IMG/VR virus record: IMGVR_UViG_3300027911_000074
Span: 1 to 21,765 of that record
DNA from: a virus
Length of the DNA stretch: 21,765 nucleotides
Direction: 5' to 3' (one strand)
Made by a program: the position numbers and the translations under genes. Below, in pieces: positions 12,039-21,327 of the stretch (within the stretch, counting starts at the first letter, position 1; every line of letters begins with the position of its first letter). Under the pieces are notes generated by a model. That model saw only the letters and a list, made by a program, of their open reading frames with translations, ran no database searches and was not told the DNA's origin.

Positions 12039-12253
12039 ACAAGATCTTTCGCATCCCGGTGAAGTGCGAGACAAGTTCCATCGGGATGGACCGCTACAAA
12101 TCGCTCGGTCGGATTGATGACGATCACCATAGCATTCTCGGAGACCACCAGAAACTTTTCATGGTTGTCTACTTCTCGAATGATCAGGCAAACTTCATCA
12201 TATCGATGAGCATCCTCTAACGCTTTGGCTTTGGCTTCGGTGTAAGTCATCAT
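12035..12253 (-). CDS. hypothetical protein, 72 aa
   Basis: Starts MMTYTEAKAKALEDAHRYDE, followed by repeated strand-like segments (VCLIIREVD, KFLVVSENAMVIVI, RFVAVHPDG). It looks like a small beta-sheet protein; no family recognised. The ATG at 12253 overlaps the NAD-kinase stop as ATGA, so its translation is coupled to NAD kinase. Confidence 0.7.
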   Translation of the reverse strand: MMTYTEAKAKALEDAHRYDEVCLIIREVDNHEKFLVVSENAMVIVINPTERFVAVHPDGTCLALHRDAKDLV

Positions 12254-13047
12254 ACGAGTTTGTACCCCCATCCTAGTTTCTTTTGTAAGATTTCGAAATA
12301 GCTCAGATCCGGGTTTACGACTTCAACAGAAGTTCCATCGAACTTGATGAGAGCGTCCTGTCCTTGCAGTCGATACCCTATCTGGCCGTCGATAGTCGCA
12401 AACAAATTGCAGTCGTCAGATTTCACTCTAAGCGTGATCGGTTCCGTTCCGTATCGAGCCGGGAGAATCAAAGGCCGTTGTGAAAGTCCCTGCGGGCAAA
12501 TCGGCGTCACGACAAAAAGTGAAATGCAGTTGGGATGAACGATAGGACCGTTCGCAGAGAGGTTGTAAGCTGTAGAGCCTGTCGGCGTCGAAACAATCAA
12601 GCCATCAGCCCGGTAATGGCATACAAGCTCATCTCCAGCGTAAAGGCTCAATTCGACTAAGCGGGCAAGACCGTCGCCAGTCGGAAAATCTTTGATTACA
12701 ACATCGTTCAAAGCTGTGAATTTTTTGTCGCCAATGGTGAGTTCCAACAGCTTACGGACAGTAGAAGTAAAATGACCTTCAAGAAAGGCGTCGATGGCTT
12801 GTCGGTAATTCTCTTTCGAGCACGACGTAAGAAATCCCAGGTGCCCGGTGTTGATGACGAAGATTGGATATTGATGTGCTTGACGAGATGCGCCTAGAAC
12901 GCTCCCATCTCCACCCAGGACGACAGTGAACCTGCATTCATCATCCCAAACTTCAACTAGCTCAATACCTTTTTCTGCAAAGTATTTAATGACATCGTAG
13001 TAAAAGAGAGCGGTTGATGTCTTTGCGAAAATGAAACCTTTTTTCAA
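12250..13047 (-). CDS. nadK: NAD kinase
   Basis: 265 aa. The family hallmarks are clear: GGDGS (45-49), NTGHLGF (66-72), the LNDV segment (113-116), and the long DGLIVSTPTGSTAYNLSANG block (148-167) that binds NAD and forms the nucleotide pocket. It phosphorylates NAD+ at the 2' hydroxyl with ATP to give NADP+. Shorter than E. coli NadK (292 aa) but with all motifs, so probably active. Start is TTG at 13047 with an AAGGA SD about 6 nt upstream; no in-frame ATG is nearer. It lies 22 nt after a tRNA gene and heads an overlapping operon that ends with the Nudix and LpxH-like genes. Confidence 0.95.
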   Translation of the reverse strand: MKKGFIFAKTSTALFYYDVIKYFAEKGIELVEVWDDECRFTVVLGGDGSVLGASRQAHQYPIFVINTGHLGFLTSCSKENYRQAIDAFLEGHFTSTVRKLLELTIGDKKFTALNDVVIKDFPTGDGLARLVELSLYAGDELVCHYRADGLIVSTPTGSTAYNLSANGPIVHPNCISLFVVTPICPQGLSQRPLILPARYGTEPITLRVKSDDCNLFATIDGQIGYRLQGQDALIKFDGTSVEVVNPDLSYFEILQKKLGWGYKLV

Positions 13048-17082: not shown

Positions 17083-17101
17083 GTAGACGTATCTAGGCCG
17101 T
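17076..17101 (-). repeat. 26-bp direct repeat, copy 2 (NAMPT end and promoter -35)
   Basis: Identical to 14411-14436. Here it covers the Thr-Ala-TAG end of the NAMPT gene and the TTGACA box of the following promoter. The flanks beyond the 26 bases differ. Confidence 0.85.
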
Positions 17102-18643
17102 TTTCATCCATTCGTCGGCACGTTCACGAATCTCTTCGAACGTGTCGGTATGGAGCATTTCACCGTTTCGTAGGATCGGGCGAAGCAGGTTACCTTCACG
17201 GTTTTCCTCACCCGGTTTCAACTGCTCCCAGGTAATCTTGGATTCACCAGTAACCGGATTCTGCTTGCGCAGGACAGCGAACCGACCACGCTTCGAATAC
17301 TTGCCGGGATCGGTAATCGGGTCCTTGTAGACAAGGCGTTCGTTGCCGTATTTGTCTTCGAGAGCCGACAGCTTTACGGCCATGTTCAATTCATCACGAG
17401 TGTGACCCTGTAACAGCGCTCCACCTTGACCGAAGGTAGCGATGTTATCAATCGACCAGCCCGCACCTTTCAATGCACGACCCATATCGTAGATCGCATC
17501 ATAGGTGTTTTTCTCACCCTGCAAAGCTTTGATCTTGCCCCTGTGTTCCGGCAGGCCCAGCATCTTGTAGCCCTTCGAATTCAGGTGGGTTCCGAACTTC
17601 TCACCAAGCAGCCAGAGGAATTTGAGCATGGTAGGAATCGGTTCACCGGAATCAGGACGACCGACAGTCAAACCATTACGATTGATGATGGTTTCACGAA
17701 AACGAGTACCCAGGATGTCCGATGCGAATTCCCATAGATTCTTCGAATCAGCGACGATGGAAATGATTCCAGTCGGGCATTTTTCAAAAACGCCTTCGAC
17801 TACATCGGCTTCGTATTCCAAACCTTTATGAGTCATGACGGAGTGCTCGGTTGCGCAGACTCCATTACACGGTAAGTAAGTCGGTTCACCGTGTTGGTCG
17901 AACTTTCCGTCGCCGTAAAATTCGTTGATGTAAGCGATGGACGGAATGTTGTCCGAAGACGAGAAGTGAACTAAGTGAGCCGCACCACCAGCCTCAGCAG
18001 ACTCGAAAGAAGACACGCCACGCAATCCGAAGTCGCAAAGCATGTATCGGATGGCTTCCGGCGTACCAGTCTCTTGTAGAGCCTGATAGAGCACTTTCTT
18101 GATGTGCTGGGAGTAAGTACCGACTGTCGTCGGTGCCCAGACGTGAAACATCGTCGGTTCAAGGAATCCCGGCAGCATCGAAACTTTGTGACCGAAGTTT
18201 TTGATGATTTTGCGCTGGCCGTTGATGATGTGATCCATGACCTTGTGAGTATTGAAGTAGGTCACAATCGGAGTGCGAACCGGAACGTTCAGACCTTCAG
18301 GCAAGGCCCAGACTTCGAGAGGCAGAATGCCATCCAATTCTCGTGCAATGAACATCCAGGCGTCATAATCATAGACGCCATCAAAGCCAAAAAACTCTTT
18401 GTAAAATCTGCGATCACTTTCGACCTGTTTGACTGTGATACGAGGTCCGGTGAATTCCTTCCAACACAAAGCCTGTGCTCCGAAAGGTGTGATGTCACCA
18501 AACTCTCCACCACGGCTTTCCATGTAATCGTACATCCACTTGATGCCGGGTTCATAGAATAAGTGATGGCTGATCTTGTAAGCGTCAGTGCGCCTCGTAA
18601 TACTTCGTTCGCTTGACCCTCTCGGGATGATAATGTTACTCAT
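17093..18643 (-). CDS. nadV: nicotinamide phosphoribosyltransferase (NAMPT)
   Basis: 516 aa, slightly longer than human NAMPT (491). Family signatures are TDAYKISHHLFY (19-30), DFGLRGVSS (204-212), the catalytic His in ATEHSVM (H267), VADSKNLW (298-304, D299), GRPDSGEP (328-335) that binds the phosphoribosyl group, GQGGALLQ (405-412), and KDPITDPGKYSKRGR near the end. It makes NMN from nicotinamide and PRPP, the first step of salvage from nicotinamide, which is the product left when TIR-type defence enzymes destroy NAD+. An AAGGAAA SD precedes the ATG. It overlaps the upstream small gene by 8 nt. It acts with the NMNAT-type proteins upstream. Confidence 0.96.
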   Translation of the reverse strand: MSNIIIPRGSSERSITRRTDAYKISHHLFYEPGIKWMYDYMESRGGEFGDITPFGAQALCWKEFTGPRITVKQVESDRRFYKEFFGFDGVYDYDAWMFIARELDGILPLEVWALPEGLNVPVRTPIVTYFNTHKVMDHIINGQRKIIKNFGHKVSMLPGFLEPTMFHVWAPTTVGTYSQHIKKVLYQALQETGTPEAIRYMLCDFGLRGVSSFESAEAGGAAHLVHFSSSDNIPSIAYINEFYGDGKFDQHGEPTYLPCNGVCATEHSVMTHKGLEYEADVVEGVFEKCPTGIISIVADSKNLWEFASDILGTRFRETIINRNGLTVGRPDSGEPIPTMLKFLWLLGEKFGTHLNSKGYKMLGLPEHRGKIKALQGEKNTYDAIYDMGRALKGAGWSIDNIATFGQGGALLQGHTRDELNMAVKLSALEDKYGNERLVYKDPITDPGKYSKRGRFAVLRKQNPVTGESKITWEQLKPGEENREGNLLRPILRNGEMLHTDTFEEIRERADEWMKTA

Positions 18644-18821: not shown

Positions 18822-18927
18822 GTCGTCTTCTTACCATCGCTTTCTTTACTGCTTTCATGTTAGCACGAGCGACCTTGAGATCGCAATGATACATCTTCAA
18901 ATAATCTTCAAGATGAAGATGCGGCAT
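18796..18927 (-). CDS. small basic hypothetical protein, 43 aa
   Basis: MPHLHLEDYLKMYHCDLKVA continuing to a very basic end (KKAMVRRRHAERRTKS). The frame is open up to 19047 but that part lies within the CinA/NMNAT gene. I choose the ATG at 18927, which overlaps that gene's end by 20 nt. An ATG at 18894 is an alternative. It may bind nucleic acid because of its charge. Reality as a gene is less certain than its neighbours. Confidence 0.45.
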   Translation of the reverse strand: MPHLHLEDYLKMYHCDLKVARANMKAVKKAMVRRRHAERRTKS

Positions 18928-20161
18928 CCTGCTGATGGCGGATTGCTGTAGACGAGACAGCCGACGTTCGCAGTGGATGAGTAATTGCCACAGAAAGCTG
19001 TTTAAACGATTCTGGAAATTCGTCCAGGCCGCTTTGAAAGACTCCATCTTTTTCCCTCCCGAAGATGATGAACTGCGTTCGCCTTTCGTTGAAGGTTTCC
19101 ATTACCGGATCTATCGGACCATACTTCTCATCAACAATCCGTTTCGCCGTATCGTAACCAACGACAAAGGTAGCGCCATAAAACAAATTTGCCTTTTCGA
19201 GAAACGTCGGCGCATTGGTAAGCCAGACTACCTGCTTTCCTCTGAAAGCTTTGATCCGATTCTCGATAGTAATGAAATCCAGGAGCGGCTTATCAACGTT
19301 CCGAATGCTTAGTTCAAATTCAGTTTTACCGGACCAATGTAGGGTCGATGCGTAATCGGCCATTTCGTAATGACCATCGTGGACCGGATTGAAACTGCCA
19401 GGGAGAATCAAACCAGAATGAACAGCATCTCTCCAGCCGCACCAATCTCGCCCGTTAACACTATCGACCAATACACCATTCACAACAACGATTCCAATGC
19501 GTTGGACGGAGCCATCGATCAATCCCGGCAGAAGAGAAGTTGCTTTGTGTAAAGTGGACTCAGTACGGATCGTATAAGCTTCCAATCCGGTTTCAACTCG
19601 TTCTTTGAGTCCGCAGGCTTCAGCTACCAAATTCAGCATCAGAAGTGATGTGGCATACTCTTCATTTTCACGAATAGTTTCCGCAGTCAATGCGGAGCAT
19701 CGAATGGGATTTGTCGGATCGAGCACCAATGAGAGCGAGACCGTTTTATTACCAGTCTGCAAAGCTGCATAGATGTAGTGGATGCGGCCAGCCCGTTCTT
19801 CTGGTGTCTTCTGCAAGGACACAGAACAAGCTACGCCGAAGAACGGAGGAGGCGCAGATTTGAAATATCGTCCATCATCAAATTTCGGTTCGCCTTTGAT
19901 GGCTTGGATGTAAGCAGCCATCGCTAATTGCCTCGTAGTTTGCTCACTAACGTACTTCTCAGGCTTGCCACCAAGAAGTTCATCGGTTCTGGTCTCTTTG
20001 TACGGAATTTGACCATCGAGCAGCGTAGCGGACCCGCCACCACGTCGGAGCAGCATCGGATAAATGTCGGTGCCACCACCAGTAGCAAAGATGACTCCCC
20101 GCTGCGGAGTAGCGTGAATGCGTTTGACCAATTCTTTGGTTGTGATTGATTCAGGAAACAT
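18908..20161 (-). CDS. CinA-C-like / nucleotidyltransferase (NMNAT-type) fusion
   Basis: 417 aa, two domains. Residues about 1-190 follow the CinA C-terminal (PncC) fold outline: ATGGGTDIYPMLLRRGGGSA (26-45), PYKETRTDELLG, VSEQTTRQLAMAA, and FFGVACSV. Residues about 248-410 are a nucleotidyltransferase with LPGSFNPVHDGH (253-264, the HxGH nucleotide-binding motif) and SSTAIR (403-408), both typical of NMN/NaMN adenylyltransferases. It could convert NMN to NAD+. In my rough alignment the PncC domain lacks the catalytic Ser and Lys of NMN deamidases (Phe25 and Thr59 there), so it may only bind nucleotide. Plant proteins with a similar domain pairing exist as far as I recall. It sits directly upstream of the NAMPT cluster. 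Confidence 0.85.
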   Translation of the reverse strand: MFPESITTKELVKRIHATPQRGVIFATGGGTDIYPMLLRRGGGSATLLDGQIPYKETRTDELLGGKPEKYVSEQTTRQLAMAAYIQAIKGEPKFDDGRYFKSAPPPFFGVACSVSLQKTPEERAGRIHYIYAALQTGNKTVSLSLVLDPTNPIRCSALTAETIRENEEYATSLLMLNLVAEACGLKERVETGLEAYTIRTESTLHKATSLLPGLIDGSVQRIGIVVVNGVLVDSVNGRDWCGWRDAVHSGLILPGSFNPVHDGHYEMADYASTLHWSGKTEFELSIRNVDKPLLDFITIENRIKAFRGKQVVWLTNAPTFLEKANLFYGATFVVGYDTAKRIVDEKYGPIDPVMETFNERRTQFIIFGREKDGVFQSGLDEFPESFKQLSVAITHPLRTSAVSSTAIRHQQDAASSS

Positions 20162-20372
20162 AATTTTTCACTCGTGTTATTGGTTGTAAAACGTTGGGGT
20201 TTGCTGGCTCGGGACTGTTTTCGAAACCATGCGAATTAAGCATACAATTCCAACAGCGACCGCTAATGTTATCTTGTGGTACACCTTCGGGACCATAATA
20301 ATCATTCGCAGGCGTACACATGTACTTCTTTTTGCAGTTGACACAGACTACCGGAAGATCGAGATCAAGCAT
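20151..20372 (-). CDS. small zinc-ribbon protein, 73 aa
   Basis: Two CxxC knuckles, C10-V-N-C13 and C40-W-N-C43, with an extra C19. A predicted zinc ribbon with a Pro/Asn-rich tail. It overlaps the NMNAT-Nudix gene end by 8 nt and the CinA fusion start by 11 nt, so it is embedded in the NAD operon. Function unknown; it may be a regulator or partner. Confidence 0.75.
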   Translation of the reverse strand: MLDLDLPVVCVNCKKKYMCTPANDYYGPEGVPQDNISGRCWNCMLNSHGFENSPEPANPNVLQPITRVKNYVS

Positions 20373-21327
20373 TGGAATATCCTTTGAATTTCAAAAGTTC
20401 ATGCAGCAAGTTGACGTGTTCGCCTTCCATATCTGCGTCCAAAATTGCTTCCAGATCCCACCACTGAATCATTCCGCCGTTTGCAAGATCGTCGCCCGCT
20501 TCAAGCTGATCGTCAGTACCCAGGAAATTGATTTCGAAAAAGGTAGTGATGATGCCATCCGGGTTGTCTCGGTAACGCCAGTCGTTGACGTTCATGCTGC
20601 AAATGTATAAAGGTTTCGTAAAAACTTCGTTGGGATTAACCCCTTTACGCAAAAGTTCCTCTCCACCTTCCCTGAGTACTGCGAACTCCAAAGAAACGTC
20701 ACCACGGTCCTTAAAACCACCAGCAAACCGCCATCCTCGCTCACCGGGCTTCTTCGCCAGGAGGTATTGGAGTTTTCCACGAAAAACACGGCTTACGGCG
20801 ATATCGACGGTCGGATAGTTGATCGGAAATTGTTTGTTCAGTCCGTAGATCACACCCCTACGAAAAAGTTCCATCGAATCGCATTCATCTGTTATCGGCC
20901 AGTACGGATTTTTGATGACGAAATTGCGGGATGTAACTTCGTGATAGAGAAAATTTGTTCTGGCAGTCAACCAATACAAAGGCGGCTGCGTCCGATCAGA
21001 GAAAAAATGAATGGCTTGAGGATTGTATTCGATGTAATGATCGGATAGCGTTTTGATTACAGCCTGTTCTAAGGTGTTAGTCTGATCCCAAAGATATTTC
21101 TTTTGGGTGACAGGCACGATAAGAACTTTTCCGATGAATCTATCTTCGATCATTTCCATTCGCATCGTAAAATCCAATGGAGCATTTTTACTGAACGGAA
21201 CACGATTTACTGGGAGAGTGATGATTGTGATGTTGTGATCTTTTAGAATGTCCCGAATCGTTTCCTCGTGATACCCTCGAAGGGAAGGCGTCTGAAACGG
21301 AGCGTAAATGACTGCAATGTTATTCAT
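20365..21327 (-). CDS. natV: NatV/NadM-like bifunctional NMN adenylyltransferase-Nudix protein
   Basis: 320 aa. Residues 1-110 follow the NMNAT outline: a first strand and loop with VIYAPFQTPSLRGYH (6-20, keeping one His of the usual HxGH), FSKNAPLDFTMRMEMI (45-60), matching the N-P...R...MI region, and VPVTQKK. Residues about 165-310 hold a Nudix domain with a GGF...REGGEE box (203-224) in which the first Glu is Asp210 and one residue is inserted. NatV of phage KVP40 has the same NMNAT-plus-Nudix order and works with NadV. The changed ATP-binding motif means NMNAT activity should not be assumed. It is the first complete gene of the NAD module and has a candidate near-leaderless promoter. Confidence 0.82.
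   Translation of the reverse strand: MNNIAVIYAPFQTPSLRGYHEETIRDILKDHNITIITLPVNRVPFSKNAPLDFTMRMEMIEDRFIGKVLIVPVTQKKYLWDQTNTLEQAVIKTLSDHYIEYNPQAIHFFSDRTQPPLYWLTARTNFLYHEVTSRNFVIKNPYWPITDECDSMELFRRGVIYGLNKQFPINYPTVDIAVSRVFRGKLQYLLAKKPGERGWRFAGGFKDRGDVSLEFAVLREGGEELLRKGVNPNEVFTKPLYICSMNVNDWRYRDNPDGIITTFFEINFLGTDDQLEAGDDLANGGMIQWWDLEAILDADMEGEHVNLLHELLKFKGYSNA

Follow-up and report, generated by a model that had tools for sequence, protein, structure and literature searches.

A probable NMN adenylyltransferase of phages and bacteria that carries a CinA/PncC-like domain lacking the deamidase dyad

In the accessible portions of the reports on NMN deamidases of the PncC/CinA-C type, catalysis by the A. 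tumefaciens enzyme is assigned to Ser31 and Lys63, the phosphate is held by Gly46, Ser48, Tyr58, and Arg145, and Thr105 is a substrate residue; S31A and K63A variants are inactive, and T105A raises the Km (PMC5384747). The corresponding S29A and K61Q changes in E. coli PncC likewise abolish activity, yet these variants bind NMN with micromolar Kd, and Y56A and R142A variants show no NMN response, according to the excerpted report (PMC8231969). As far as its accessible text goes, a survey of deamidases excluded CinA proteins fused to other domains (PMC3855486). A survey of viral NAD genes names NadV, NadM, and NadR, with NadM and NadR as the phage NMNATs, and the words CinA, PncC, and NMNAT do not occur in the part of its text available (PMC9503650). 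A further parallel, taken from excerpts of the source, comes from plants, where an FAD synthetase is joined to an FAD pyrophosphatase that has been inactivated (PMC9678776). The fusion described here would resemble that protein in combining a cofactor maker with an inactivated domain of a kind that would undo the product, and differs from it in the domains and in the cofactor. No published description of a CinA-like/NMNAT fusion was found in the literature searched, most subscription journals lying outside it, and the family looks undescribed. Searches on AT3G27610 and on SAR86 NAD metabolism returned nothing bearing on the fusion. The NMNAT-C of PMC13036487, considered as a possible relative, is an ordinary bacterial NMNAT as far as the available text describes it.

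The window, by which we mean the whole stretch of DNA analysed, is an IMG/VR virus record of 21,765 bases. A single, uninterrupted frame of 417 codons on its minus strand spans exactly 18908-20161, where the preliminary description had placed the gene. Its product, P0001, was also found at 100% identity on a second IMG/VR contig. Among 50,697 phage records, P0001 matches best to LR745208.1 (485 kb), which encodes a full-length homologue with both domains; by BLASTP the C-terminal halves are 33% identical over 165 residues, and for the N-terminal halves the figure is 36% over 70 residues. Searches of P0001 alone against PDB with phmmer, and against PHROGs and plasmids, gave nothing useful. The gene and its domains are as follows.

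18908..20161, minus strand: coding sequence of the CinA-like/NMNAT fusion P0001, 417 amino acids (open frame; full-length relatives in phages and bacteria)
19610..20161, minus strand: CinA/PncC-like domain, residues 1-184, deamidase dyad not conserved (hhalign; fold match 2A9S)
19427..19609, minus strand: connecting segment, residues 185-245 (predicted model with a few strands and one helix; low confidence at 236-243)
18911..19426, minus strand: NMNAT/NadD-type adenylyltransferase domain, residues 246-417 (PF01467; fold match 5VIR)

A Pfam scan of P0001 reported the adenylyltransferase family PF01467 alone (23.9 bits, cut-off 21) and did not detect the CinA domain, PF02464. The latter family matches the N-domain of several relatives directly, for example with 28 bits, above cut-off, in G020/L040. 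When the N-domains of 72 fusions were compared by hhalign with 15 CinA domains from host genomes, the probability was 96.5 in local and 97.6 in global mode (E 7e-10 and 1.4e-11, respectively). An AlphaFold2 model of P0001, built from a 55-sequence family alignment, had a mean pLDDT of 88.5 and a pTM of 0.89; in this predicted model, residues 5-184 matched A. tumefaciens CinA 2A9S (Z 15.8, rmsd 2.8, 149 residues aligned), and residues 247-416 matched NadD structures, best of all 5VIR (Z 13.1). Foldseek gave the same fold assignments. Given the Pfam-detectable relatives, the profile comparison, and the fold match, the preliminary designation of the gene as a CinA-C/NMNAT fusion is right.

Three seed proteins were aligned and used to scan genome contigs. 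The best 80 of at least 99 relatives, which were the ones used, belong to Chloroflexota, Planctomycetota, Gammaproteobacteria (SAR86 among them), and a few other groups. Viral contigs held 13 relative loci, counting a near-copy of the window, and several of these are the NMNAT half alone. The occurrence in Chloroflexota, Planctomycetota, and Gammaproteobacteria rules out that the fusion is a phage peculiarity; the family is bacterial, and phages carry it too. The long branch of P0001 makes its position in the tree of the family uncertain. Plants have proteins of similar domain order.

Three alignments (hhalign, joint MAFFT, and the HMMER family profile against 2A9S) agree in pairing Ser31 of PncC (A. 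tumefaciens numbering throughout) with Thr27 of P0001 and Lys63 with Thr59, and the spacing of Ser31-Gly46-Tyr58-Lys63 equals that of Thr27-Gly42-Tyr54-Thr59 without a gap. The preliminary description had likewise given Thr59 for the Lys, and its choice of Phe25 for the Ser was wrong by two residues: Phe25 aligns two residues ahead of Ser31, and pairing the two would need a two-residue gap that none of the three alignments makes. The Ser31/Lys63 catalytic dyad is absent in P0001, and alignment with PncC did not restore it. The residues that correspond to functional positions of PncC are:

20081..20083, minus strand: Thr27, counterpart of the catalytic Ser31 (hhalign, joint MAFFT, and HMMER alignments)
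19985..19987, minus strand: Thr59, counterpart of the general base Lys63 (hhalign, joint MAFFT, and HMMER alignments)
20030..20038, minus strand: Gly42-x-Ser44, counterpart of the phosphate-binding Gly46 and Ser48 (family alignment, 72 rows)
20000..20002, minus strand: Tyr54, counterpart of the phosphate-binding Tyr58 (family alignment, 72 rows)
19670..19672, minus strand: Arg164, counterpart of the phosphate-binding Arg145 (family alignment, 72 rows)

Residues were counted in 72 full-length rows, namely P0001 and 71 loci, after removal of duplicates (L001, L002, L006-L008) and exclusion of one-domain, cut-end, or split loci (L004, L068, L072, L074-L080, L082, L083, L085-L088, L091, L093-L096, and L098); L081, which has X, was excluded from alignment A4. 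In these rows, which are not independent since SAR86 near-copies were retained, the Ser31 position holds Thr in 35, Ala in 24, and Ser in 13, so that Ser is replaced in 59/72. The Lys63 position is filled by Leu (40), Met (14), Phe (9), Thr (5), Gln (2), Ile (1), or Trp (1), and by Lys in 0/72; the seven viral rows have Thr in three, Gln in two, and Leu and Met in one each. Compared with the deamidases 2A9S, 4CT8, and E. coli YgaD, Glu30 and Cys32 are also replaced in the fusion. These substitutions suggest that the N-domain is very probably dead as a deamidase throughout the family, as had been proposed for the window protein, and the missing general-base Lys is the firmest support for this loss.

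It is very improbable that NMN deamidation persists in the N-domain through Thr27 as nucleophile and some other base. Thr or Ser does occupy the Ser31 position in 48/72 sequences, with Thr in P0001 itself, but Ala stands there in 24/72 and the base Lys in none. Moreover, the K63A and K61Q changes abolish the known enzymes, as far as the accessible reports describe them (PMC5384747; PMC8231969), and the 26 SAR86-order fusion genomes described below are without NadD and NadE, which would make NaMN a dead end. We also observed that fusion-bearing bacteria can have a second CinA paralogue (L106, L108, L110, L111, L126, L127, and L128) that retains the Ser and in which the base Lys is apparently Arg or another residue; it is possibly another non-deamidating class of CinA.

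The residues that hold phosphate in PncC are all matched in P0001 (Gly42, Ser44, Tyr54, and Arg164) and are nearly invariant in the 72 rows: the Gly46 position is Gly in 71 and Asn in one, the Ser48 position Ser in 66 and Thr in six, the Tyr58 position Tyr in 71 and His in one, and the Arg145 position Arg in all 72. The Thr105 position (residue 113) is Thr in 64 and Ser in seven, with one gap. The fusion thus shares with PncC/CinA-C deamidases the fold and the counterparts of Gly46, Ser48, Tyr58, Thr105, and Arg145; it differs from them in having Thr, Ala, or Ser for Ser31, never Lys at Lys63, and an attached adenylyltransferase. The family contains natural versions of both of the PncC changes that kill the enzyme and leave binding. 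Because the phosphate-site residues are kept and the published PncC mutants still bind, the N-domain is likely to hold NMN, and by this analogy a dead domain that still binds NMN is plausible. Such a domain might, one step further, act as the NMN sensor or delivery domain suggested in the preliminary description.

The ribose/ring loop differs from that of PncC (Gly106 to Ala, Ala108 to Leu or Ile), and the family has gained a conserved K-R-G-x-H-R stretch, with Lys in 52 and Arg in 12 rows at position 122, Gly124 in 69/72, and His128 and Arg129 each in 57/72. The ligand may therefore not be NMN. The N-domain might instead catalyse a new reaction or accommodate a larger ligand (NAD(P), ADP-ribose, or products of NMN damage, for example), with the kept phosphate site and the K-R-G-x-H-R loop binding or processing another nucleotide; we judge this unlikely, although it is the strongest competitor. 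It is favoured by the conservation of Lys122, Gly124, His128, and Arg129, positions not among the conserved ones of PncC in the accessible part of PMC5384747, by the invariance of Arg164, and by the persistence of the domain in hosts that already have NadD and in some with PncC. It is weakened by P0001 itself, which deviates from the stretch (Glu122, Tyr129), and by the failure to match any known enzyme with such a site. Inactive domains often persist as scaffolds, and the N-domain could serve merely in dimerisation or stability. In the portion of the source available, the 2A9S CinA domain forms a dimer (PMC4246079), but a scaffold would not need phosphate-site residues that are near-invariant in 72 sequences, and we regard this explanation as rather unlikely.

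The NMNAT half retains both motifs that the preliminary description had pointed out, at the following positions.

19370..19399, minus strand: GSFNPVHDGH nucleotide-binding motif, residues 255-264, with HxGH intact (translation)
18938..18955, minus strand: SSTAIR motif, residues 403-408 (translation)

The pattern FNPxHxGH is found in 71/72 full-length rows, L092 reading HDTH, and conservation within SSTAIR is 69/72 for Ser403 and 71/72 for both Ser404 and Arg408. The fusion has the fold, HxGH, and SSTxxR in common with NadD/NMNAT adenylyltransferases, and it differs from them in its extra CinA-like domain and in a score of 21.5 bits against the NadD equivalog model TIGR00482, far under the cut-off of 112.45. 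It is very probably an NMNAT. The nearest structures to this half are nevertheless those of NadD, its weak matches are to NadD models, and NadE is present in many NadD-bearing hosts, all of which would fit a NaMN adenylyltransferase that replaces NadD and feeds NadE. We consider that assignment improbable, since NadE is missing in 26 SAR86-order fusion genomes and since the neighbour in the phage is NAMPT, which makes NMN.

The genome survey behind this argument comprised 61 genomes of unstated completeness from the order of SAR86 genome G010. Of these, 29 have NadD, called by TIGR00482 above cut-off, and 26 have the fusion; no genome has both, and six have neither (Fisher p 1.4e-11); the draw alternates two genome kinds, so the pattern may reflect a single evolutionary switch. 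Canonical PncC (E <= 1e-49) was present in 29/29 NadD genomes compared to 0/26 fusion genomes, where the weak PF02464 matches are the fusion itself, and NadE (E <= 1e-20) in 28/29 compared to 0/26 (none in G081, a partial one in G099). The whole deamido route (PncC, NadD, and NadE) is absent in the SAR86-order fusion genomes. This absence makes NMN to NAD+ the likely reaction, and the fusion is probably the NMN adenylyltransferase of these carriers, in place of the usual genes. Among genomes with neither fusion nor NadD, G061 has PncC and NadE, plus a NadD-like remnant where a contig ends, and G054, G066, G084, G090, and G098 are without PncC or a strong NadE. The PnuC transporter family PF04973 did not separate the groups (14/26 fusion and 11/29 NadD genomes), and PF04095 had no match in the three SAR86 genomes G005, G010, and G015.

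A second survey covered 70 genomes from the class of Chloroflexota genome G017. Four have a full-length fusion, and NadD (E <= 1e-10) was found in 0/4 of these compared to 60/66 of the others (58 above cut-off; p 2.3e-4). Replacement is not general, as 27/36 of the fetched bacterial fusion hosts also have NadD above cut-off, and in such hosts the fusion may do something extra. PF04095 matched in just 5/36 of these hosts, so NAMPT is not the usual partner in bacteria. Taken together, the two counts mean that the fusion requires neither NadD loss nor NAMPT. The NAMPT setting of the preliminary description therefore stands for the window, where NAMPT adjoins the fusion, and has to be widened for the family, 31/36 bacterial hosts being without a PF04095 match.

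On the minus strand of the window, the order is NadM-like/Nudix gene, fusion, NAMPT, with these neighbours:

20365..21327, minus strand: NadM-like/Nudix protein, next upstream of the fusion, with RGYH replacing HxGH (Nudix PF00293; alignment A5)
17093..18643, minus strand: NAMPT (nicotinamide phosphoribosyltransferase), the NMN maker, next downstream of the fusion (phrog_448, E 2.5e-106)

A NAMPT gene thus adjoins an NMNAT gene in the window, the arrangement of a putative phage NAD+ salvage cassette of the NARP2 type. Relatives of the NadM-like/Nudix gene read HEGH, HDAH, HDVH, and, in one more, TEGH at the site where the window has RGYH, which leaves the fusion with the sole intact HxGH of the three-gene cassette. 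As judged by this motif, the window NadM-like/Nudix protein may combine a dead adenylyltransferase half with a live Nudix half. P0001 itself has no Nudix domain; the Nudix domain lies in the neighbouring gene. Relatives of that gene directly adjoin NAMPT in Tunturi_5 and in one huge-phage record, and another adjoins a frame that is NAMPT-like by eye. The fusion thus sits within a known NAMPT/NadM-Nudix pair and may have taken over the NMNAT step. It shares the pathway step and the kind of neighbour with the phage NadM-Nudix proteins that accompany NadV/NAMPT, and differs from them in that its NMNAT is of the NadD type and a pseudo-deamidase stands in place of the Nudix domain.

In phage L092, NAMPT, the fusion, and a Nudix gene lie in a row, and in phage L089 an ordinary NadM-Nudix gene, NAMPT, and a NADAR gene are clustered, with the fusion elsewhere. 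The NADAR-type gene (L155:4869-5375) adjoins NAMPT and NadM-Nudix. Of five other full-fusion phage records searched for PF04095, these two had a match and L003, L005, and L090 had none, which gives 3/6 with the window. The window also encodes a predicted phage NAD kinase (12250-13047, minus strand; NF002306 170 bits, under the cut-off of 316); NAD kinase, NAMPT, and the fusion would take nicotinamide to NADP in one phage.

We therefore favour, at a probability of roughly 55%, an NMNAT whose N-terminal CinA/PncC domain no longer catalyses deamidation and retains the NMN phosphate pocket. The computed observations underlying this reading are both folds, the family-wide loss of Lys, the retention of the phosphate site, the intact HxGH and SSTxxR, and the lack of PncC, NadD, and NadE in the SAR86-order fusion genomes. 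The NMNAT half would convert NMN and ATP to NAD+ and PPi, with a presumed preference for NMN, and the pseudo-deamidase would bind NMN and either hold it for the attached active site or tune that site. In the phage, NMN supplied by NAMPT would be converted to NAD+ by the fusion, a two-step rebuilding of host NAD+ that would skip the detour via NaMN; an active deamidase beside NAMPT would drain the NMN intermediate. A bolder proposal, to which we give tentative and minority credence, is that the family consists of NMN-gated NAD synthases in which a disarmed deamidase loads or allosterically controls the NMNAT, that one lineage within the SAR86 order swapped PncC-NadD-NadE for it, and that phages captured the fusion to restore NAD+ in infected cells, displacing NadM in the NAMPT cassette. 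If the favoured reading is true, the family would parallel, in nature, the NMN-biosensor mutants engineered in E. coli PncC, would add a further kind of phage NMNAT beside NadM and NadR, and would be a candidate explanation for NAD making in marine bacteria without NadD, NadE, and PncC. The fusion also offers a simple way to ask if a substrate-cleaving domain, once dead, can hold substrate for a competing enzyme.

Recurrent gene neighbours of the bacterial fusions were scanned as possible evidence and set aside, as they show no tie to NAD making: they encode an alpha/beta hydrolase, a short-chain dehydrogenase, a hexapeptide protein, UbiD, a mannosyltransferase-like protein, glucokinase, formamidopyrimidine-DNA glycosylase, and one protein without a family. 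In L077, L087, and L088, the halves of the fusion are encoded by two separate, neighbouring open frames that overlap, consistent with the halves also working together when unfused; the split in L088 is possibly a frameshift. In a 595-kb phage, the NMNAT half occurs alone (L004:5938-6510), between frames that by eye are thymidylate synthase-like and dihydrofolate reductase-like.
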